64,000 nt of DNA, from the NCBI GenBank assembly GCA_013297885.1, contig JAAFIR010000007.1, positions 1 through 64,000 of the forward strand, in the 5' to 3' direction. The stretch comes from Leptospirales bacterium (lineage in GTDB: Bacteria; Spirochaetota; Leptospiria; Leptospirales; Leptospiraceae). The notes under the pieces were generated by a model, which did not search any database, was not told where the DNA came from, and saw nothing but the letters and a program-made list of their open reading frames with translations. The position numbers and the translations under genes are program-made. Of the stretch, positions 3,609 to 62,429 are shown piece after piece (position 1 is the first letter of the stretch; every line of letters begins with the position of its first letter).

Positions 3609-3848
3609 TCACAACTCCAACACCGGCAGCGCATCCACAATCTTTCTAGTCTCCAAACTCACAGTGATCACACGTTGAAAAAGTTCTAGTGGGTAGGCTG
3701 GATTATTTTCTACTTCGATGCCCCAAGCGTTTGCGTCGTTTTCGATCCCAGAATCTTTATCGATTTTAATACAGTAGCGTTCTACAATCCAGTCGAGTGC
3801 AGATTTTCCGTTTACGATATATTTGAAAGCATTGAGTAAAATATTTCT
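3609..3848 (-). pseudogene. C-terminal remnant of a type ISP restriction enzyme (copy 2)
   Basis: The frame encodes AFKYIVNGKSALDWIVERY, then KIDKDSGIENDANAW and LFQRVITVSLETRKIV, which is the conserved C-terminal tail of the large DEAD/DEAH-helicase plus methyltransferase type ISP enzymes (about 1500-1600 residues). Only about 80 residues remain. The frame continues upstream to an ATG at 3929, but that part is encoded by a dispersed repeat (3849-3984), so the repeat sits at the break. It is about two thirds identical to the tail at 5840-6317, so it comes from a different ISP gene and not from a simple duplication. Confidence 0.75.
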
Positions 3849-3984
3849 GGGCGAATTTTTTGTGTCGGAATTTTTAATAAAATGAAAGGTATGCCTGTTA
3901 TCTACTACACAAAAAAACTGTGCTTTCAACTTCGGTCAATTTTTTTTATACAAAAAAAATTGACCCCGTTTCAATCACTTTCGC
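3849..3984 (-). repeat. Dispersed modular hairpin element, copy A
   Basis: Read on the minus strand it has GCGAAAGTGATTGAAACGG, a perfect 32-base hairpin (3934-3965), GAAGTTGAAAGCACAG-T7, a second loop region and AAAAAATTCGCCC. It fills the gap after darG and supplies the first 30 codons of the frame running into the ISP remnant. The 200 bases between it and darG show nothing else. Confidence 0.85.
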
Positions 3985-4182
3985 ATTGTGTTGAGGGGAA
4001 TTTTGTTTTTGATTGAATTAATGTTTTTATTTCTATTCAACAAAGGAATCTTTAATAACATTTTAGATTGAGATATAAAACAGTTTTCAATATGCCACGA
4101 AAAACTTTTAAATTGATTTTATTTGGTTGTTTTTGATTATAAAATTCAGATCATCATAGATAAATTGAATTCAAGATAAAAA

Positions 4183-6326: not shown

Positions 6327-9300
6327 TTAAATTAGAAACTTTAAACCGGTTATATATATGAATTGTTTGGTTTGTTTGAAAGTAAGTTTATCAAAACCAA
6401 TTTTAAGAAGAATTTCTTTTAGTTCGTCTTCTCTATTCTCCCATTTTTGAAAAGGCTCTGCAATTATAACAACACCCATAATTTTTAGAATACGATATGC
6501 CTCATTAAGATAATCCTTATAATTTGATCCCATCAATGAAAGTGAAAAAACGGCAATGTCAATTGAGTTGTTTTCAAGGGGTAACTTAGAAATATCACAA
6601 GCTTTTACATTTGTATTAATCGCAACATGATCAAAAGCTAAAACTTTATTTGAAATTTCTTTTCGAAGTAAATCCTCTCCACAACCTAAATCTGCAACAA
6701 TCATTTCTTTACGAGTAATCATCTTACCGATTTCTACATAAGGAATTTCTTTCCAATCTTTTCTTCGTTCTTTGTAAAGTGTATGGTAATAGTACCAGTC
6801 TTCTGGATTTTCTTTTAGTTTTGTGTTAGTTGTCTTAGAATTCGAGATACTCCAAATACGATTAAGTTCTGAGAAATCTCCTAACGTTCTAGAAAGTTGT
6901 TCAACTATTTCAGGACGGAGTGGAAAAATTAAATCCTTTCTCTGGATTATAAAGATTTTGCCGTCTCCAATTCTTTCTTTCCAATCTCGGAGTGCCTCTT
7001 GCGATTTTTTAAAAAGTGTATCTAGAGACGGAATTTTTTTTGAAGGAACGACTCCATCAATGGCAGCATCAGCAAGAGTTTTTTTATTTCTTATTAGATG
7101 AATTCTCTGCATATCCCAAGACCATTCTTTTTCTTCTAATTGAATATAGACTTGAGGAATTAGAATTTCTACTTCCCCGAACTTAGAGCCTTGCCTATAG
7201 ATTCTTCCTTTTAACTGCGTATATTCTGAATCAGTCCAAGGGAGCGAAAGTATAATCATACGATTACATTTTTCTTGGAGTCCATCAACTCCAGTTCCAA
7301 TGGGACGTGAACCAATGAGTATATCGATTTCTCCGTTCAGGAATTTGTTCTTAGCTAATTCTCTTTCTTCTAAAGATTCCTCACCAGTATAAGTTCCAAA
7401 TTTGAAACCGCAGGATTTTACAAAGTCGATAATCGGTTCAATCATTCCAGTTGTATAATGAGTATATAAAATTACTCCTGATTGAAGATAATGATGAATT
7501 GCAGTCAATTTTTTAGGAAGTAAAATTTGTTCTGCTTTAATGTAATTGGTATTTGAAATAGAAAGTAATTCTTCAAGTAAATCTTTTCCATCTAATTTTA
7601 ACTTTGGAGTATTCTCACCTGTTAATTCTTTTATTTGAATTTCATATTTCGGAATATATCTTAATCCATTTAGACTTAGATGTTTAAAGGCTTCAAGCGC
7701 ATTCGCCAAGGTTTTCATTGTGTTAAAGTCTTTGTAGTCCTTGCCAGTCACCATTTCCAATAGAGACTTTGCTTCTGTGAGATTATTGATTACAGGAGTC
7801 GCACTCATTCCAAGAACATAAAGATTTTTATTCTCAGCAGCTCGACCGATAAGTCTCTTGATAGTTCCTCTACGAATACTTTCTTGTTTTTCTGTTCGCT
7901 GTTTTGCATTGTGAATTTCATCAATTGCAATAAAATCAATTTGGTTGTTATCCGTTAGGTCTTGAAATAGTTCTTCTGAATATCCTTGTTGGAATTTATC
8001 ATAATTTAGAATTAGATAATTCTTATTTTTACGCATAAACTTTTGTCCTGATTTATATTGAGTAAATACCTTACTATCAGGATAGGCTTGCAAAATATTT
8101 TTACTCAATTGTTCAATTGTAGAATTTAGACCTATGAGAAGTGTAAGCCTTGCATCAACACTTCGACTACTCAATATAAACGAAAGAGTTTTCCCCGCAC
8201 CCGTTCCCGACCAGTTGCCATAACGTTTATGCTTTAAGAGTCTAAAGACTGTTAACTTCTGCATGAGATTCGGCACATACGGAAATGAATATCCGTCAGG
8301 TGGTGAATACTTCAATACTTCGTTGTATTCATCAAAGAAATATTTTTGCAAAAGAGTGAAATTTATGCCACCGGTTTCTGTCTTAAACTTTTTAACAGAA
8401 AAATCTTTATTCAAAACTTGATTCCAAATCTTTCTCAGTTTATATTGAATCAAAAACTCAATCGTCTCCGCATCACAGGATGAAACCAAGTCATGGTCTA
8501 ACACATGCAGATCTTCATTAGTATCGTTTAGCGAGAGTAATTTCTTTTTTTTGTTTTCTGCTTCGGCAGATTCATAACTTTCTTCATTAGCATTTATTTC
8601 AATATCTTCTGTTTCTACTTCGTCTTGGTTCCAGTCTTCTTCTTGTATTTCCTGATTCGATGATAGCTCTTCGAATTCTATGCTTTCAGTTTCTGTTTCT
8701 AATCTTTCTTTAAGTGCTTTTAGAGTATTTTCTTTGTTATCCTCATCCGTGAAGACTAAGTCTCTGAATGTTTCAGGTAGTCTGCCTTGGTTGATTATCA
8801 TTTGTAACTCGACCGCATCCATTTGTAGAAGGTCTTGGTTTTCTATGGAGTGGAGGAATTCTAGGATTTTTGGTTTAGACCAGCCGAGGTTGCAAGTAGG
8901 GCAGCCTGTTCCACGTTTATGACTATCAGGTATTTGCAAAAACCCACCATGAATATTGCAAATAATTTTAACCGGAGTTCTTGCGTTTAAATATATTAAT
9001 TCCGAATAATCGTATTTATCTCCATGTATTTTTCTAAAGTCTTTTATGACTTCATCTTTGGTTAATAACATTTTACCAAAACACTTAGAACATCCTTGTC
9101 CTGATTTATGATTTCCAGGTGTTTGTAAGAATTCTCCATGCTCCGGACAGATAATTATTACAACTTCTAAATTATTTGCATAGACGACTTTAGAATAATC
9201 GTATTTGTCCCCGTGAACTTTTTTGAAATCATGAATAACTTGTTCGAATGAGAGTTTTATATTTCCACTGCATACAGGACAGCCAGCACCTTTTTTATGA

Positions 9301-10010
9301 GCATAAGGCAACTGTTCAAACTTGCCATGTTTTTTACATATTATGATTACTTTCGAATCAGTATTCTCATACTCTACTTTTGAATAATCATATTTCTTTC
9401 CATGTACTTTTCTAAAATCTTTAATCACTTCGTCAGTAGTTAATTTTACTCTTCCTCCGCATTTAGCACAGCCTTTTCCACTTTTATGTTCACTAGGAGT
9501 CTGTGAAAATTTACCATGTTCCGGACAAATGATAGTAACGGGTGTCATTCCTTTAATATAATTTACTTTGGAATAATCGTATTTATTCCCATGAACTTTT
9601 TTAAATTCCAGAATAATTTCTTCTGTGGTTAATCCACGACCCGCACATTTTGGACAACCAACACCACTCCTATGATGACTAACTCTTTGTAAAAAATCTC
9701 CATGCTCTCGACAAATAATTAGAATAGGCTTTGTTGTGTTAATATAGCTTGCTTTCGAATAATCGTATTTATCTCCATGAATTTTCTTGAAGTCTTGAAT
9801 AATTTCTTCTGTAGAAAATCCTCGACCAACACATTTAGGACAACCCACCCCGCTTTTATGCTTATTTGGTGTTAAAAGAAACTCACCATGTCTTTTACAA
9901 ATAATTTCAACTTTAGTTATAGCGTTTTCATACTCAACTTTCGAATAATCATACTTATTCAAGTGAACTTTTTTGAAATCTTTTATTACATCTTGGGTGG
10001 TTAGTTTCAT
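6327..10010 (-). CDS. SNF2-type helicase with six zinc ribbons and a C-terminal methyltransferase
   Basis: This 1227-residue protein has three parts. Residues 1-375 hold six tandem repeats of about 62 residues with consensus KVHGDKYDYSKV, then IIC-x2-HGxF and GxGCPxC, a DUF723-like zinc ribbon found in phage and endonuclease proteins. An acidic linker follows (about 430-500). A superfamily 2 helicase core spans about 580-1000: Walker A GTGAGKT near 602, DEIH near 697, GMSATP, and a helicase C part ending in LKGRIYRQGSKFGE. The last 150 residues are a class I methyltransferase (ADLGCGED near 1107, then VFSLSLMGSN) like Rrp8. Its start is one base from the KAP NTPase stop, so the two form an operon. 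A defence role is inferred from context; the substrate is unknown. Confidence 0.85.
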   Translation of the reverse strand: MKLTTQDVIKDFKKVHLNKYDYSKVEYENAITKVEIICKRHGEFLLTPNKHKSGVGCPKCVGRGFSTEEIIQDFKKIHGDKYDYSKASYINTTKPILIICREHGDFLQRVSHHRSGVGCPKCAGRGLTTEEIILEFKKVHGNKYDYSKVNYIKGMTPVTIICPEHGKFSQTPSEHKSGKGCAKCGGRVKLTTDEVIKDFRKVHGKKYDYSKVEYENTDSKVIIICKKHGKFEQLPYAHKKGAGCPVCSGNIKLSFEQVIHDFKKVHGDKYDYSKVVYANNLEVVIIICPEHGEFLQTPGNHKSGQGCSKCFGKMLLTKDEVIKDFRKIHGDKYDYSELIYLNARTPVKIICNIHGGFLQIPDSHKRGTGCPTCNLGWSKPKILEFLHSIENQDLLQMDAVELQMIINQGRLPETFRDLVFTDEDNKENTLKALKERLETETESIEFEELSSNQEIQEEDWNQDEVETEDIEINANEESYESAEAENKKKKLLSLNDTNEDLHVLDHDLVSSCDAETIEFLIQYKLRKIWNQVLNKDFSVKKFKTETGGINFTLLQKYFFDEYNEVLKYSPPDGYSFPYVPNLMQKLTVFRLLKHKRYGNWSGTGAGKTLSFILSSRSVDARLTLLIGLNSTIEQLSKNILQAYPDSKVFTQYKSGQKFMRKNKNYLILNYDKFQQGYSEELFQDLTDNNQIDFIAIDEIHNAKQRTEKQESIRRGTIKRLIGRAAENKNLYVLGMSATPVINNLTEAKSLLEMVTGKDYKDFNTMKTLANALEAFKHLSLNGLRYIPKYEIQIKELTGENTPKLKLDGKDLLEELLSISNTNYIKAEQILLPKKLTAIHHYLQSGVILYTHYTTGMIEPIIDFVKSCGFKFGTYTGEESLEERELAKNKFLNGEIDILIGSRPIGTGVDGLQEKCNRMIILSLPWTDSEYTQLKGRIYRQGSKFGEVEILIPQVYIQLEEKEWSWDMQRIHLIRNKKTLADAAIDGVVPSKKIPSLDTLFKKSQEALRDWKERIGDGKIFIIQRKDLIFPLRPEIVEQLSRTLGDFSELNRIWSISNSKTTNTKLKENPEDWYYYHTLYKERRKDWKEIPYVEIGKMITRKEMIVADLGCGEDLLRKEISNKVLAFDHVAINTNVKACDISKLPLENNSIDIAVFSLSLMGSNYKDYLNEAYRILKIMGVVIIAEPFQKWENREDELKEILLKIGFDKLTFKQTKQFIYITGLKFLI

Positions 10011-10011
10011 A

Positions 10012-11982
10012 TTATCGAGAAATCATTTCTTGCTTGTTCAAAGTTAGATTCGATTTATAAGATTGAAGTTTATCAATGCCATCGGTTAAAGCTATTATAA
10101 ATTGATTTAAACTTAAATTCTGAATTGGTTTATCCGAATTACCTTCAATTTTTAATTCGATGCCTTGTTTTAAATCCCGTAGAAATTCTAATTCAGTAAG
10201 AAGTTGACTTGCATTTCCATTATATCTATTTTTAAATAAATAGGATAAATACTGAATTTGTGGATTATCCAACTCAGTTATTACATTCAGGAATTCACTT
10301 GCATTGAAATAAGTAAAAATTGGAAATTCAGCATAAGTGTAATTCGGATTGTGATAGATTTCTAATTTAAACTGCTCAGGATTCTTTTCAATTAAGAATC
10401 CGAGTAATTTTTTTGCTTCTTCTTGATAGAAAGGCTTAGATTTTTTTTTAATTTGATATCTTAAGAATTTAAAGATTTTAAGAAAATCAGAATTATCCAT
10501 TTGAAAACGAAGACCATAAAATCCACATGAGCTATTTGCTAGCCAATTTGGATCAGATAGATAACCCTTTTTACCCATTTCTAGAATGTAATATTTCATT
10601 TCTTTCATGACTTGCTCTTTATTTTTCTTTCCTGGAAAAAGATTATTCTCTAGTAAATATAAATACGTTTTTAAAATTTCCAAAAATATTTCTGGATTTT
10701 TTATTTCATGTGCTTTAATTTCATTTTCAATAATCGTAAACAGCTTTAAAAAGTCTTCATCTGAAATATCTCTGAAGCTTTGTAGCTTTTTCCAAGCAGG
10801 GGTATTTTCTTTAAAGAAATACTCAGACTGAAGTAATTCCTTTGTTATCGCTTCCTTATTCGGAATACCATTTACAAAAAAATAAACCCAATTTTCCACT
10901 GAAATAATTAAACTATTTGAACTAATAAATGAGACACCGTATTTTCCAAAAACGGTATAAGTATTTTCTTCATTTGATACAGTTTTGTTTTTTTGTTCAT
11001 GAAAATTATCTATAAAATCCTTTTCCAGATTCCTTAATTTTTCTGGATTAAATCCTGCTTTAATTTCAAAGGAAAATATAAAAAATATTTGTATCAATTG
11101 TTGGATTAGATCATTCTTGCCCTTTACCTTATCATCTAAATGATTCCAAAAAATTCGCCAATCATAGAAAGTTTGCATTAGGATTCGAAGATTATCTTTT
11201 CCAAATGTGGTATATACTTCTTTTATTATATGAATATTATTTCTTATAACCGTATCTGGGAAACTGCCATTCTTCTCAGTATACTTTTTGATAAATGATT
11301 CTAGTGCTGAGTCAATATCTCCCTGAATACGAAAGGATTTACCAATTAATTTTTCTTTTATAATTTTGTATTTTGATTGATTCTGATTATTCTCGATCTT
11401 TGCTAAATGAGCATTATCCGCATTATTTTTCTGTTCAAAATCTTTTTGTAATTTCTCCGATTCATCAATTTCATCTTCATTAGCAATTATAATAACTCTT
11501 AATTTATTTTGCTCTACGTATTTATTTATATATCCAAGAGTTTCAGAAGGCGATAGCAAACATCTCTCTAGATCATCAAAGATAAGAGTTTTTGATACTA
11601 TATTATCGAATAAATCAATGACGTTTACTTTTGGTATAGAAGCTTCAATTTTAGTTCCATCAAACATTCCTTCCTTGATATCGAAACCAAATTTGCTGAT
11701 TCCTGAAAGTAAAACAGATGTTAATAGTTTCATTCCTTTAGATGCCATAACCGGATGTAAAACAGAAAAAATTTCAGAATCTATTTGCTCTGTCGATTTT
11801 AACCCATTCAATGATACATAGAGAAAAGAATCTTTTGTTTTTTCTTGCTTTTCTTCACGATAGTTTTCTATAAAATGAGTTTTTCCGCAACCCCAATTCC
11901 CAGTTAACATTACGGCAAAACCTGGCTCAATGTGGCTCACATAATCATCTAGAAACTGTTTTATATTTTCGTTACGTTTCAT
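10012..11982 (-). CDS. KAP family P-loop NTPase
   Basis: The 656-residue protein begins with a KAP-type NTPase domain: Walker A GNWGCGKT at 28-35 and Walker B LIFDDLER at 133-140, with the DDLER form typical of KAP proteins. The remaining 400 residues are helical with no motif that I recognise. No transmembrane pair is obvious in the NTPase, unlike some eukaryotic KAP proteins. The ATG overlaps the stop of a 41-residue ISP N-terminal remnant (ATGA), and the helicase gene follows after one base, so the three are cotranscribed. KAP NTPases occur in several phage-defence loci; that function here is inference. Confidence 0.85.
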   Translation of the reverse strand: MKRNENIKQFLDDYVSHIEPGFAVMLTGNWGCGKTHFIENYREEKQEKTKDSFLYVSLNGLKSTEQIDSEIFSVLHPVMASKGMKLLTSVLLSGISKFGFDIKEGMFDGTKIEASIPKVNVIDLFDNIVSKTLIFDDLERCLLSPSETLGYINKYVEQNKLRVIIIANEDEIDESEKLQKDFEQKNNADNAHLAKIENNQNQSKYKIIKEKLIGKSFRIQGDIDSALESFIKKYTEKNGSFPDTVIRNNIHIIKEVYTTFGKDNLRILMQTFYDWRIFWNHLDDKVKGKNDLIQQLIQIFFIFSFEIKAGFNPEKLRNLEKDFIDNFHEQKNKTVSNEENTYTVFGKYGVSFISSNSLIISVENWVYFFVNGIPNKEAITKELLQSEYFFKENTPAWKKLQSFRDISDEDFLKLFTIIENEIKAHEIKNPEIFLEILKTYLYLLENNLFPGKKNKEQVMKEMKYYILEMGKKGYLSDPNWLANSSCGFYGLRFQMDNSDFLKIFKFLRYQIKKKSKPFYQEEAKKLLGFLIEKNPEQFKLEIYHNPNYTYAEFPIFTYFNASEFLNVITELDNPQIQYLSYLFKNRYNGNASQLLTELEFLRDLKQGIELKIEGNSDKPIQNLSLNQFIIALTDGIDKLQSYKSNLTLNKQEMISR

Positions 11983-20952: not shown

Positions 20953-20957
20953 AATTT

Positions 20958-21064
20958 AGGACGAGTTTTTGCTTCGCCGAAAAGATGGCTGCAAAAATCA
21001 GGCTCTCGCTCTTGTCAAAAAATTTCATTCATAAATTTTTTGACATTGCTTCGATCCTTCTCGC
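20958..21064 (-). repeat. Dispersed modular hairpin element, copy B1
   Basis: Minus-strand copy right after the barrel gene, with GCGAGAAGGATCGAAGC, a GTCAA-type hairpin (21013-21045) and GGCGAAGCAAAAACTCGTCC. It is nearly identical to copy G (39184-39289). Together with B2 it fills the 360-base gap before the peroxidase gene. Confidence 0.85.
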
Positions 21065-21106
21065 ATGGTTAAACCGTATTTAAAAAAGTTTTCCAATTCT
21101 AGCATT

Positions 21107-21231
21107 AGTGATTGAAGCGGTGTCAAAATTTTTTATATAAAAAATTTTGACAAGAGCAGAAAGCACGACTTTTGAGTTTAGAAAAAATAAAATTCTTTTA
21201 TTCAAAAAAAATATATTCCTAAACTCAAAAG
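21107..21231 (+). repeat. Dispersed modular hairpin element, copy B2
   Basis: Plus-strand copy whose 5-prime end faces that of B1, 43 bases away. It has GTGATTGAAGCGG, a perfect 32-base palindromic hairpin (21121-21152), GAGCAGAAAGCACGA, and a second stem CTTTTGAGTTTAG (21169-21181) pairing with 21219-21231. The closing TTCGCCC block is missing. Confidence 0.82.
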
Positions 21232-21312
21232 GAATGCTCAATCATACCAATTAATATTTTAATTTTACATTTTTAATTGATTAAATCCTAGTCTAAAACT
21301 CAGGAGTATTAA

Positions 21313-24028: not shown

Positions 24029-24055
24029 ATAAAATTTTTCAATACTGGAAGCAAA

Positions 24056-24287
24056 GCGAGAGTGATTGAAGCGTTTCTTAAAACAGTGGGTCTCGACCCC
24101 AGGTCTGACCCACTGCTTTAAGAAGTAGCATAGCTTGGCTTGGTGCTTCAAAGAAGCAGGGGGGTCATAACACGGTTTTTCGTAAATGAAGAATTAAAAA
24201 TTAAAAATGCTTTTTCAAATTTTTAATTCCAAATTTTTAATTCTTCATTTTTTCTGCAGAGCAGAAAAGAAAAACTCGCCCAAAAAA
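24056..24287 (+). repeat. Dispersed modular hairpin element, copy C
   Basis: This is the longest copy. It has GCGAGAGTGATTGAAGCG, a hairpin whose inner stem is ACAGTGGGTC with GACCCACTG (24074-24124), an inserted stretch, ACACGGTTTTT, a large AT hairpin from AATGAAGAATTAAAAATT (24185-24250) and AAAAACTCGCCC. It fills most of the 386-base gap between the SH3 lipoprotein and thiolase genes. Confidence 0.85.
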
Positions 24288-29104: not shown

Positions 29105-29223
29105 GGCGAATTTTTTTATTGTAGTTTACACAAAGGCTAGTAAACTACAATAAAAAAACCGGGCTTTTCGTTCCAATCTTTGTTCGTTCCTCACAAAGGA
29201 TTTACACTTCAATCCCTTTTCGC
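29105..29223 (-). repeat. Dispersed modular hairpin element, copy D
   Basis: Minus-strand copy in the gap between two divergent genes. The second stem is perfect: TTTTTTTATTGTAGTTTAC (29111-29129) pairs with 29140-29158. The GCGAAAAGGGATTGAAG block and AAGCCCGG block are both conserved. The first hairpin is weak here. Confidence 0.85.
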
Positions 29224-29309
29224 AAGTTTAGTAGAAATTTCTTTCTAAAAATTAAATACTTCGAATCGCTAAAAAAACATAATAAATTCTGATTGAAAAA
29301 AAAAGGATT

Positions 29310-34993: not shown

Positions 34994-35270
34994 GTTAGAT
35001 TAAATTGGAAAAGATTAAAAATAGTATCGTGGGCATATATTTTAAATTAAAAAAAGTTACAATCTCTCTTAAAATGAATTTTAATACAAGTTAAATTAAA
35101 TGACTTAGAATTTCAAGTATAATTGAAATGTTTTTTTATAGTTTAAAGTTTATTTTCTTAACTAGAAATTTTATTTCAATTTTGTAATATAGTAATTAGT
35201 TACATTACAAATAACTATTTAAAACTATGTAAGATTTGAAAATATAAATTTCTTAAAAGCTGTAGACCAA
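34994..35270. other. Intergenic region between divergent genes
   Basis: This AT-rich 277 bases between the CNNM gene and repeat copy E should hold promoters for the minus-strand operon. I see no clear motif, small gene or RNA in it. Confidence 0.4.
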
Positions 35271-35390
35271 GCAAAAGGGATTGAAGCGGAAATCCTTTTG
35301 TCTTCTTAGAATATTTATTTAGCAAAATAGATTCCAAAAGATTGAAGTGGAAAGCCCGGTTTTTGCAAAGCAAAAATTTGCCAAAAAAAC
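35271..35390 (+). repeat. Dispersed modular hairpin element, copy E
   Basis: Plus-strand copy upstream of sufB with GCAAAAGGGATTGAAGCGG, a weak first hairpin (ATCCTTTTG with CAAAAGAT), GAAGTGGAAAGCCCGG, a perfect TTTTTGC-AAA-GCAAAAA stem and TTTGCC. It ends 46 bases before the sufB start, so it would be part of the 5-prime region or just upstream of the promoter. Confidence 0.82.
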
Positions 35391-36824: not shown

Positions 36825-36964
36825 AGGGCGAATTTTTAAAGTAGGCAAAAATAATTTAGATAAAAAAATCTATTTGTCCAATACCTACTTTAAAAAACAA
36901 GCTCTCGCTTTGGTCAAAAAATTTCATAAACGAAATTTTTTGACCCCGCTTCGATCTTTTTCGC
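36825..36964 (-). repeat. Dispersed modular hairpin element, copy F
   Basis: Minus-strand copy starting nine bases after sufB. It has AGCGAAAAAGATCGAAGCGG, a GGTCAAAAAATTTC-type hairpin (36911-36945), a long second stem using TTTTTAAAGTAGG (36833-36845) with 36884-36896, and AAAATTCGCCC. Confidence 0.85.
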
Positions 36965-37066
36965 TTGTGAATAAAATAATTTCTTCTATAAGAATCACCG
37001 TTTAATCACTGTTAAATTATCTTTACTTAAAAAAGATGAATTTAAAGAATTAATTTAGGATATTTT

Positions 37067-39157: not shown

Positions 39158-39183
39158 AAATAAAAAATTTAAAATATCTTTTT

Positions 39184-39289
39184 AGGCGAGTTTTTGCTTC
39201 GCCGAAAAGATGGCTGCAAAAATCAGGCTCTTGCTCTTGTCAAAAAATTTCATTTAGAAATTTTTTGACATTGCTTCGATCCTTCTCGC
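39184..39289 (-). repeat. Dispersed modular hairpin element, copy G
   Basis: Minus-strand copy between convergent genes and nearly identical to B1. The 5-prime block and the first half of its hairpin encode the last eleven residues and the stop codon of the adenylate cyclase (39254). Confidence 0.87.
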
Positions 39290-40555
39290 TAGTACATCTA
39301 AAAATTTCTCATTAGCATCAATTCCATTTGAGGAATATTCTGACTTTATTGAATCCAAAAAATACATTGAAATTTCACCTTTATTCTTAGCTCCAATTTT
39401 TCCTCGAGGTGTACAGATAAAATATTCTGAGATTTGATGATATGTTTCTTCAGAAATATTAATCTTTCCAAGTTCAGAAGATGATTCCATTCTACTTGCA
39501 GTGTTTACAGTATCTCCCCAAATATCGTATGAAAATTTTTTCTTTCCAATTACTCCTGCAATTAAAGGACCTGAGTGAAAACCAATTCGAATATCCCAAA
39601 AAGGAATATTTAATTCTTGTTTTAATTTTTTGATTTGGTTAAATGCTTCTCTCATTTTAATAGCAGCAAGAGCCATATCAATTGAAGGATTTTTTTTCTC
39701 TACAGGCACACCTGAGGCACACATATAAGAATCACCAATTGTTTTTATTTTTTCAATTTTAAACTGATCTATAATTTGATCAAAAAAAGAAAAACACAAA
39801 TCTAGTTCTTTAATTATATCTTTCGGATTCATATGTTCAGAAATTTTAGTAAACCCAGAAAAATCAGTAAATAGAACTGTTGCATTTTTAAAATAAAGAG
39901 GTTCAACAGTATCTTTTTTTTTCAGTTCATTTGCAACTGCTATAGGTAAAATATTATGTAAAAGTCTATTTGATTCAGCAATAGATTCTTCAAGCCTTGA
40001 TTCAAATACTGTATTTACTAATTCATGGTATTCTTTACTTTGCTCTAAAACAATTTTCCAAGCTTCATCATAATTTAATTCAGGAATTTTTAAAATCATT
40101 TCTCTTAAAATTTCTCGCATATTATTTTCCACACGAATAAAAAACGCAATGGAAAAACCATTTTGCCTATAATCAAGTGCTTTAAACGAATTGGTTGTAG
40201 TTTCTGTAAAAATTTTTTTATTTTCTACATTTGGATCACATAAATCAAAAAGCCTATATAAAAATAAACGATTGTAAGTGTGAAAAGAATAATCTTCATA
40301 TTTATAAATAAATTTATTTCTAAAAGCCCATTCTTTAATTAAATTAAATTCAGGAATTTCTAATTTTTCAATTTCAGGAAGTCTATTTAATAATTCATTT
40401 TTTAATTCCTGGTTTACTTCTTTTCCAGATTTTCCACTATCAACACCACTTGTTTGAGAAAATTCAGTTTCTTTTGTGAGTTCAATGTTGATATGTTTTA
40501 AAAAATGCCGAGCAATTTCTAAAGCAATTATTTTTCTTAATTCAATTTCTTCCAT
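39254..40555 (-). CDS. Adenylate/guanylate cyclase, class III
   Basis: The C-terminal 200 residues are a class III cyclase catalytic domain: VLFTDFSGFTKISEHM with the first metal Asp, KTIGDSYMCASGVP with the second, and IRIGFHSGPLIAGVIG, YDIWGDTVNTASRME. The N-terminal 220 residues are helical with no known sensor and no membrane segment, so it should be a soluble enzyme making cyclic AMP. The last residues, ARRIEAMSKNF, are encoded inside repeat copy G, so the element has set the present C-terminus. It faces the porin gene convergently. Confidence 0.9.
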   Translation of the reverse strand: MEEIELRKIIALEIARHFLKHINIELTKETEFSQTSGVDSGKSGKEVNQELKNELLNRLPEIEKLEIPEFNLIKEWAFRNKFIYKYEDYSFHTYNRLFLYRLFDLCDPNVENKKIFTETTTNSFKALDYRQNGFSIAFFIRVENNMREILREMILKIPELNYDEAWKIVLEQSKEYHELVNTVFESRLEESIAESNRLLHNILPIAVANELKKKDTVEPLYFKNATVLFTDFSGFTKISEHMNPKDIIKELDLCFSFFDQIIDQFKIEKIKTIGDSYMCASGVPVEKKNPSIDMALAAIKMREAFNQIKKLKQELNIPFWDIRIGFHSGPLIAGVIGKKKFSYDIWGDTVNTASRMESSSELGKINISEETYHQISEYFICTPRGKIGAKNKGEISMYFLDSIKSEYSSNGIDANEKFLDVLARRIEAMSKNF

Positions 40556-41004: not shown

Positions 41005-41128
41005 TGGGTGAGTTTTTGCGATGCAAAAAACGGGCTTTCCCCTTTTGTCAAAAATTTGTCCACCCTGCTGCTTTGAAGCACCTATCTGGGATATACAAAT
41101 TTTTGACATCGGGTCAATCCCTCTCACT
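41005..41128 (-). repeat. Dispersed modular hairpin element, copy H
   Basis: Minus-strand copy with GTGAGAGGGATTGACCC, a TGTCAAAAATTTGTAT hairpin interrupted by a GC-richer insert, GGAAAGCCCG-T6 and a TTTTTTGCATCGCAAAAA stem, then CTCACCC. It lies between two minus-strand genes. Confidence 0.78.
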
Positions 41129-41175
41129 TCTAAAGGGGAAATTTTTTAGTGAGAGGATGATTTTAGTTTATTAAA

Positions 41176-42861: not shown

Positions 42862-42955
42862 GAGAAAGGGATTAAAACGGGGTCAATATTTTTTGTATAA
42901 AAAATATTGACCGAAGTTGAAAGCCCGGTTTTTCCCTTTGGGAAAAATTCTCCCT
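42862..42955 (+). repeat. Dispersed modular hairpin element, copy I
   Basis: Compact plus-strand copy between the lipoprotein and tRNA-Gly: GAGAAAGGGATTAAAACGG, a perfect 32-base hairpin (42881-42912), GAAGTTGAAAGCCCGG-T5, a CCCTTTGGG mini-stem and AAAAATTCTCCC. It differs from copy A in the hairpin by a compensated base pair. Confidence 0.87.
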
Positions 42956-44064: not shown

Positions 44065-44251
44065 GGCGAATTTTTTTGTTGTAGAGACAATCCGTAAGAC
44101 AATGGGTTTCAACCCACTGAGCAGCTGGTAGCTACCAGCTGTCTAAATTACATAATAAAGTTCTCTACAACAAAAAAACCGTGCTTTACTCTACTTCCTT
44201 CAACCACACCCTTAAGGGTGTGGTTGAAGGAAACGCTTCAATCACTTTCGC
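44064..44251 (-). repeat. Dispersed modular hairpin element, copy J
   Basis: Minus-strand copy with the first stem a perfect 38-base loopless palindrome (44195-44232; half TTCCTTCAACCACACCCTT) and a second region closed by TTGTTGTAGAGA with its complement near 44162. Inside it are two nested hairpins: ATGGGTT-TC-AACCCACT and the palindrome CAGCTGGTAGCTACCAGCTG. The GCGAAAGTGATTGAAGCG and TTCGCCC blocks are intact. Confidence 0.87.
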
Positions 44252-44265
44252 ATTGTGTTGAGTTA

Positions 44266-44610
44266 CTAATTATCCAGATTTTCACTCAAATAGTTTTTTA
44301 TTAAAGATAAAATTTCATATGCAATCAAAATAGATTCTTTGGCAAGAGCTTCAGCTATATTTACATCAATATCTTAATCTCCTGTTTCCCTATATTCAAA
44401 TAATCTATAAACCGATTTTTCAAAATGCGTCGGTAGAAGTTTTGTTTTAATAAACTCCTTATTAAAACTTCCTAGAGTCTGGGAATGAGAAGAAAAGCTT
44501 AAATCTTTTGGTAGCAAAATTGCAGAAATTGCATGAAATGAAGAATATTAAGCTCTTGAAATTACATCGTCAAATTGACCATGGTCACGATTCAAAATCC
44601 AAATGTATCC
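44266..44610 (-). pseudogene. HEPN-domain protein remnant
   Basis: One frame encodes NRDHGQFDDVISRA, a stop, YSSFHAISAILLPKDLSFSS, HSQTLGSFNKEFIKTKLLP, RLFEYRETGD, another stop, then DIDVNIAEALAKES and ILSLIKNYL. This is the HEPN fold found in HEPN/MNT toxin systems and related proteins. Both stops are TAA in place of an expected TAT (Tyr), so point mutations inactivated it. No nucleotidyltransferase partner is nearby. Confidence 0.65.
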
Positions 44611-54519: not shown

Positions 54520-54593
54520 GTTATTGTTTTAATTTCTGTAATTCCAAGTTTACAAGCAAATTTTATTTTATCAAAAAGATTTTACTTTTCTAC

Positions 54594-54722
54594 GCGAAAG
54601 GGATTGAAACGGTTCTGAGACAGTGGGTTGTAACCCACTGTCTCAGAAGTAGTTGAAAGCCCGGTTTTTTATTGTAGAGACATTGTATGCAACGTCTTTA
54701 CAATAAAAAATTCGCCCAAAAA
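54594..54722 (+). repeat. Dispersed modular hairpin element, copy K
   Basis: The clearest copy: GCGAAAGGGATTGAAACGG, a perfect 36-base hairpin (54613-54648) with the stem ACAGTGGGTT, GTAGTTGAAAGCCCGG-T6, a second stem ATTGTAGAGAC with GTCTTTACAAT, and AAAAAATTCGCCC. Together with the related unit at 54811 it fills the 404-base gap between divergent genes. Confidence 0.9.
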
Positions 54723-62076: not shown

Positions 62077-62255
62077 GGGCGAATTTTTCTTTTTTTGCAA
62101 AGCAAAAAAAAATGTACAATTAAAAATTAATAATTTGGAATTCAAAAAATTTTTAGTATCAATTTTTAATTCCACATTTACGAAAAAACACGCTCGCCTC
62201 TTCGGTCAAAAAAATTGTATTCACAATTTTTTGACCACGAGTTGATCGTTTTCGC
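62077..62255 (-). repeat. Dispersed modular hairpin element, copy L
   Basis: Minus-strand copy after radA with GCGAAAACGATCAACTCG, a GGTCAAAAAATTGT-type hairpin (62204-62236), GAGGCGAGCGTG-T6, an AT-rich stretch with an ATTAAAAATTG inverted repeat, a TTTTTTTGCTTTGCAAAAAA stem and AAAAATTCGCCC. The remaining 170 bases to the next gene show no other feature. Confidence 0.82.
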
Positions 62256-62429
62256 TAGTTCACCAAAATTTATTTTTTTATTCTAATTTTGTTTTGGATT
62301 CAAACTTTACACAACTTAGAACTACATCCTCATAGCTTCACTTTTTTAAAATTCAAGATAAATTAAATCAAGTTATGTGGTTTTAAACTAAAGCTTGATA
62401 AATTCCTAAAATAGTTGAAACATGACATC

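Follow-up and report, generated by a model that had tools for sequence, protein, structure and literature searches.

The compensatory base changes in hairpin 1 of the repeated element described here go far beyond chance, and hairpin 1 is only one arm of a larger three-way junction. The original prediction concerned hairpin 1 in three copies from the window (the whole stretch of 64,000 nucleotides that was analysed); it understated the case, and missed both the junction and the kinship to the Flavo-1 family (RF01705). The best explanation, which we consider to have about an even chance of being right, is that a folded single-stranded DNA (ssDNA) signal has turned into a REP-like chromosomal repeat. 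The observations concern the structure of the element, its covariation, its copy number, its intergenic and orientation-neutral placement, and its homologues on plasmids.

The full element is roughly 90-220 nt long. The three-way junction has P1 as its outer stem; P2a comprises three bases and P2b, which bears hairpin 1, two; hairpin 2 completes it. Read along the element strand, the 5' part consists of the P1 5' arm (commonly GCGAA), AG, the P2a 5' arm G-N-G, ATTGAA, the two bases of P2b and then hairpin 1; the 3' part continues with the P2b partner, a GAAAG face, the P2a partner C-N-C, GG, hairpin 2, the P1 3' arm and CC. The strand is asymmetric, with internal-loop faces, ATTGA and GAAAG at P2a/P2b, that are unpaired and conserved. 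Hairpin 1 occurs in three types, namely a (AAATCCTTTTGC..), b (GGTCAA.., the type of the copies first noticed) and c (TTTC..GAAG), and hairpin 2 is as variable as hairpin 1. Comparison of the copies shows long perfect hairpins of very different sequence occupying the same frame. When folded as ssDNA, the minimum free energy structure is the three-way junction both for copy I (z -6.5) and for copy B2 (z -7.2). Copy I sits between a plus-strand gene and a tRNA-Gly/tmRNA pair, and is laid out as follows.

42862-42954, plus strand: copy I, whole element from P1 to the CC after P1 (ssDNA minimum free energy fold; homologous to 164 copies)
42862-42866, plus strand: P1 5' arm GAGAA, partner TTCTC at 42948-42952 (fold)
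42868-42870, plus strand: P2a 5' arm GGG, partner CCC at 42924-42926 (covariation at the middle pair, all four types)
42877-42878, plus strand: P2b 5' arm AC, partner GT at 42916-42917 (Watson-Crick with covariation)
42881-42912, plus strand: hairpin 1, type b, GGTCAA..TTGACC (54 same-type copies)
42929-42947, plus strand: hairpin 2, the variable second arm (fold)
42948-42952, plus strand: P1 3' arm TTCTC, then CC (fold)

Including diverged ones, the window holds about 13 copies. Those other than copy I are listed here.

3866-3987, minus strand: copy A, hairpin 1 at 3934-3965 (Flavo-1 model 27.1 bits, under gathering)
20955-21070, minus strand: diverged copy adjoining B2, GATCGAAGC.. variant
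21100-21240, plus strand: copy B2, hairpin 1 at 21121-21152, P1 GCATT/AATGC, hairpin 2 of 13 bp (fold; Flavo-1 38.5 bits)
24050-24150, plus strand: copy that is partial or diverged, its type c hairpin containing a CAGTGGG palindrome
29153-29233, minus strand: copy above the Flavo-1 gathering score (46.7 bits)
35260-35385, plus strand: copy above the Flavo-1 gathering score (49.4 bits)
36885-36970, minus strand: diverged copy, GATCGAAGC.. variant
39178-39296, minus strand: diverged copy (95% identity to 20955-21064)
41027-41131, minus strand: copy of type b with a loop insert
44173-44268, minus strand: copy of type c, hairpin 1 perfect over 20 bp
54592-54700, plus strand: copy of type c, CAGTGGGTTGTAACCCACTG palindrome inside hairpin 1
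62140-62259, minus strand: diverged copy, GATCAACTC.. variant

Two further features of the window may be recorded. A fragmentary C-terminal domain of a Type ISP restriction enzyme (3609-3929, minus strand) begins directly beside copy A, and six tandem coding repeats of 186-189 nt (8893-10017) lie inside a 1227-aa ORF at 6327-10010 (minus strand).

Across the genome (4.6 Mb in 72 contigs) there are 41 blast matches to copy I and 93 matches to the Rfam model RF01705, 71 of them over the family cut-off. Scanning the window and 98 further stretches (0.67 Mb) gave 164 unique copies, a lower bound, the 0.67 Mb having been picked around known copies; reversed control sequence gave none. The consensus element gave no match in phages. 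Eight near-identical copies form a subfamily (L214:5325, L220, L240, L241, L244, L255, L273 and L278) sharing as much as about 470 nt of upstream sequence and, in most cases, a GCATAACTAT motif just outside the element; several of them lie at contig ends.

Judged by its core sequence and frame, the element belongs with Flavo-1, and is a fuller form of RF01705. Copies I, A and B2 show the conserved GAUUGAAGCGG and GAAAGC faces and the paired frame around hairpin 1, as do the 164 copies. The Flavo-1 cut-off of 42 bits is missed by both B2 and A, and copy I gives no match at E <= 1, so that these three are strictly unlisted variants.

The 32-base hairpins are indeed present in copies A, I and B2, and sequence comparison bears out the exchanges reported between them: pair 8/25 is T-A in A and A-T in I, pair 1/32 is G-C in I and T-A in B2, and pair 7/26 is T-A in I and A-T in B2. 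In a larger alignment of 54 type-b copies these three pairs are Watson-Crick in 54/54, with no independent variation. Pair 1/32 is GC in 23 copies, TA in 29 and CG in two; pair 7/26 is AT in 41, TA in 12 and CG in one; and pair 8/25 is AT in 48 and TA in six. Over all 16 stem pairs, 856 of the 864 cells are Watson-Crick, G-T does not occur and A-C occurs once. The null for covariation came from the inferred tree, on which 300 alignments were simulated; this procedure is our own approximation of R-scape and not R-scape itself. Six true pairs rise above the 95% level of the null maxima, as against none of the non-pairs. Pairs 1/32 and 7/26 each lie above the null; pair 8/25 individually does not, because it varies little.

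The same pattern extends to the stems outside hairpin 1. The middle P2a pair is Watson-Crick in all 164 copies, in all four forms (GC 81, TA 50, AT 19, CG 14), and the two P2b pairs are Watson-Crick in 157 and 162 of the 164, with covariation (G-T in 5 of 328 cells). An exact P1 complement followed by CC is found downstream in 114/164 copies, compared with 4.3/134 when partners are shuffled between copies. When the test was run on the conserved blocks of the full set of 164, two pairs lie above every null maximum, and two further pairs rank third and fourth, within the null range.

Covariation of this kind could also arise with no selection for the fold, if one arm were re-copied from the other by quasi-palindrome template switching, or by self-primed hairpin copying during movement. 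We consider this unlikely, although several observations fit it. Between nearest-neighbour type-b copies, a stem pair has changed at both of its bases in 43 cases and at only one in 8, and pairs change about as often as unpaired bases (51/656 and 52/697). Strong selection for the fold can yield such an excess of two-sided changes, and arm copying without selection equally can. Most of the double changes swap A-T for T-A or the reverse, and no wobble intermediate is seen among them, which leaves arm copying some probability; the unlike long perfect hairpins in one shared frame would also fit it. Against it, the P1, P2a and P2b arms are short and their partners distant, yet they covary as perfectly as hairpin 1, which favours selection; recent copies in the eight-member subfamily keep one-sided mismatches that were not corrected; and the conserved internal loops are left unexplained. 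The original prediction ascribed the covarying pairs to selection for the folded form. The fold is real and conserved, as it stated, and selection is not the sole possible cause, arm re-copying also fitting the data.

Flavo-1 was published as a Bacteroidetes motif and candidate RNA, with no function assigned (RF01705; Weinberg et al. 2010, PMC2864571). A structured RNA (a cis-regulatory leader, terminator or small RNA), with the compensatory changes preserving an RNA fold, would agree with that publication, with the strong covariation, and with the asymmetry of the element strand and the conservation of its internal-loop faces. Placement argues otherwise. No copy among the 164 falls within an ORF, counting ORFs of at least 90 aa by crude calls, and orientation is neutral to both neighbour genes: left neighbours are on the same strand in 73 cases and on the opposite strand in 73, and right neighbours in 77 and 69. 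There are no G-U intermediates in the 864 stem cells, although the P2b pairs of the whole set do include five G-T cells; the plasmid homologues described below are mostly antisense to the surrounding genes, and in F. psychrophilum transcriptomics Flavo-1 matches are sense or antisense to transcripts alike, with many outside transcripts (PMC9723704). RNA-level action thus looks unlikely, given the gene-free placement, the random orientation and the lack of G-U in the 54-copy set, and we regard the structured RNA as distinctly improbable. The RNA reading implied at the outset is therefore retained only as to a folded molecule; this need not be RNA, and the evidence leans toward folded ssDNA.

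Some more specific roles were also considered. A terminator was rejected, orientation being neutral to genes and no consistent U tract following a stem, as was a cis-regulatory leader, since gene starts are not preferred. Copies inside a contig show no agreement in strand (47%), and there is no GC-skew bias, so that a replication-strand signal was rejected as well; this neutrality also speaks against an RNA. An attC integron site was weighed because of the GCGTTA end; judged by inspection only, the ends have the reverse polarity to those of attC.

The number of copies raises the question of transposition. A non-autonomous transposable repeat (REP or MITE), mobilised by a transposase of the Y1/RAYT or another kind and keeping its structure only as the substrate of that enzyme, would fit the well over 100 dispersed copies here compared with only a handful in each of three same-genus genomes. 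It would also fit the only Y1 (RAYT-like) gene of the genome (L253:2408-2830), which has a copy of the element about 0.5 kb away. However, that gene is flanked (2300-2960) by another family of palindromes, CAGTGGG..CCCACTG, probably the REP of that enzyme, and across 61 genomes Y1 genes and Flavo-1 matches do not co-vary. The element was consequently rejected as the REP of the Y1 transposase of this genome, the gene having its own palindromes and Y1 presence not following Flavo-1, and a transposable repeat in the wider sense seems to us an unlikely explanation.

It is worth adding that CAGTGGG..CCCACTG palindromes are also present inside hairpins of the element (window 54592-54700 and 24050-24150, and other copies). 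Nine of 18 CAGTGGG palindromes fall within element hairpins, in about 4% of the fetched bases, which suggests that they were nested into these hairpins by insertion. In addition, an IS-like end (..AAAAAAGTCACCTTTTTATCTAATGG) is joined to the element 5' arm at the same base and in the same orientation at 13/13 contig ends (examples in genome G000 are L294-L306, L221:1-118, L249:1-119 and L285:1-117). The IS occurs as two subtypes, of which one is invariably followed by AAAGGGATTG and the other mostly by AAAGTGATTG, and it looks as if the IS targets the Flavo-1-type element.

The same architecture is found on plasmids, as identified by a search with a Bacteroidota-style consensus. The plasmids are those of Bacteroides, Phocaeicola, Moraxella, Shewanella, Vibrio, Photobacterium and Paraclostridium, and IncX4 of E. 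coli. The elements adjoin leading-region genes (ArdC-like, antirestriction, metallopeptidase, DUF3560, HicAB, StbC, relaxase and coupling protein). At 15/17 annotated plasmid loci (partly related plasmids, and not independent lineages) the 3' neighbouring gene runs on the strand opposite to the element, compared with the 77/69 split of chromosomal right neighbours; the exceptions, with the 3' neighbour on the same strand, are IncX4 and Moraxella bovoculi. The F plasmid carries two copies, opposite in strand to ssb and psiB, each in the same duplicated block as an Frpo promoter, Frpo being a single-stranded promoter (PMC9849209, PMC11541004). A Moraxella bovoculi plasmid carries the plasmid form as three identical copies in direct orientation (L342:2500, 2842 and 4725), near mobF and a coupling-protein gene, with differing intervening sequences.

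In the alignment of the plasmid homologues (A1), AG-GAT and A-AGC are invariant throughout, and the majority sequence is GCGTTAGGGATTG .. GAAAGCCCGAC .. GGGAACGCCC. Plasmid and chromosomal elements have in common the architecture and about 15-20 conserved positions; hairpin 1 differs. The F element (z -1.3) and the IncX4 element (z +0.7) fold no better than shuffles, and their homology therefore rests on sequence and frame.

We propose that one strand of the element folds as a three-way junction with variable hairpins 1 and 2, and that a host or mobile-element protein would recognise the folded single strand. On conjugative plasmids its homologues occupy leading regions, for the most part along the strand transferred into the recipient as ssDNA, and in F they adjoin single-stranded promoters. 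In Bacteroidota and in the Leptospiraceae-type genome studied here, it would have become a dispersed, orientation-neutral, intergenic REP-like repeat, whose chromosomal copies may work as the plasmid ones do, or may have spread via an ssDNA route. A broader proposal, to which we give somewhat less than an even chance, is that Flavo-1 is not an RNA but a cross-phylum family of folded-ssDNA signals, on the T-strand of conjugative plasmids including F, beside both of its Frpo promoters, and also as repeats in the chromosomes of Bacteroidota and Leptospiraceae; its hairpins would be swappable, on a junction that is fixed and covaries. As an RNA candidate, Flavo-1 has lacked an explanation since 2010. 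If it acts as an ssDNA three-way junction, RNA annotation in many bacterial genomes misleads, and the F plasmid offers a concrete sequence for the role of folded T-strand signals besides Frpo at plasmid DNA entry. It is also a warning that even perfect covariation alone is no proof that a structure is RNA.

Among known systems, the element resembles REP/RAYT repeats in being dispersed, intergenic, hairpin-forming, of high copy number and an apparent IS target. It differs from them in having a three-way junction instead of a simple palindrome, and in that the palindromes beside the Y1 gene of this genome are not this element. With Flavo-1 it shares the GATTGAAGCGG..GAAAGC core, the stems around hairpin 1 and the intergenic, high-copy habit. 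The Rfam model, however, spans hairpin 1 only (76 positions), whereas P1 and hairpin 2 are included here; hairpin 1 is replaceable here (types a, b and c); and the host is Leptospiraceae-type, not Bacteroidota. Inspection found no Frpo-like -35/-10 boxes common to the family: TTGAC is confined to type b, in its 3' arm, being absent from types a and c and from the plasmid forms, and nothing resembling TATAAT at the proper distance was seen in the element types and plasmid forms inspected. Frpo is a neighbour of the element, with a different structure. The likeness to Frpo/ssi lies in the plasmid homologues, which are in leading regions and mostly on the transferred strand, and which in F share a duplicated block with each Frpo. 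Sequence and fold are different, and the chromosomal copies have no strand preference: those in the window are chromosomal and strand-neutral, whereas the plasmid homologues are largely on the T-strand of the leading region.
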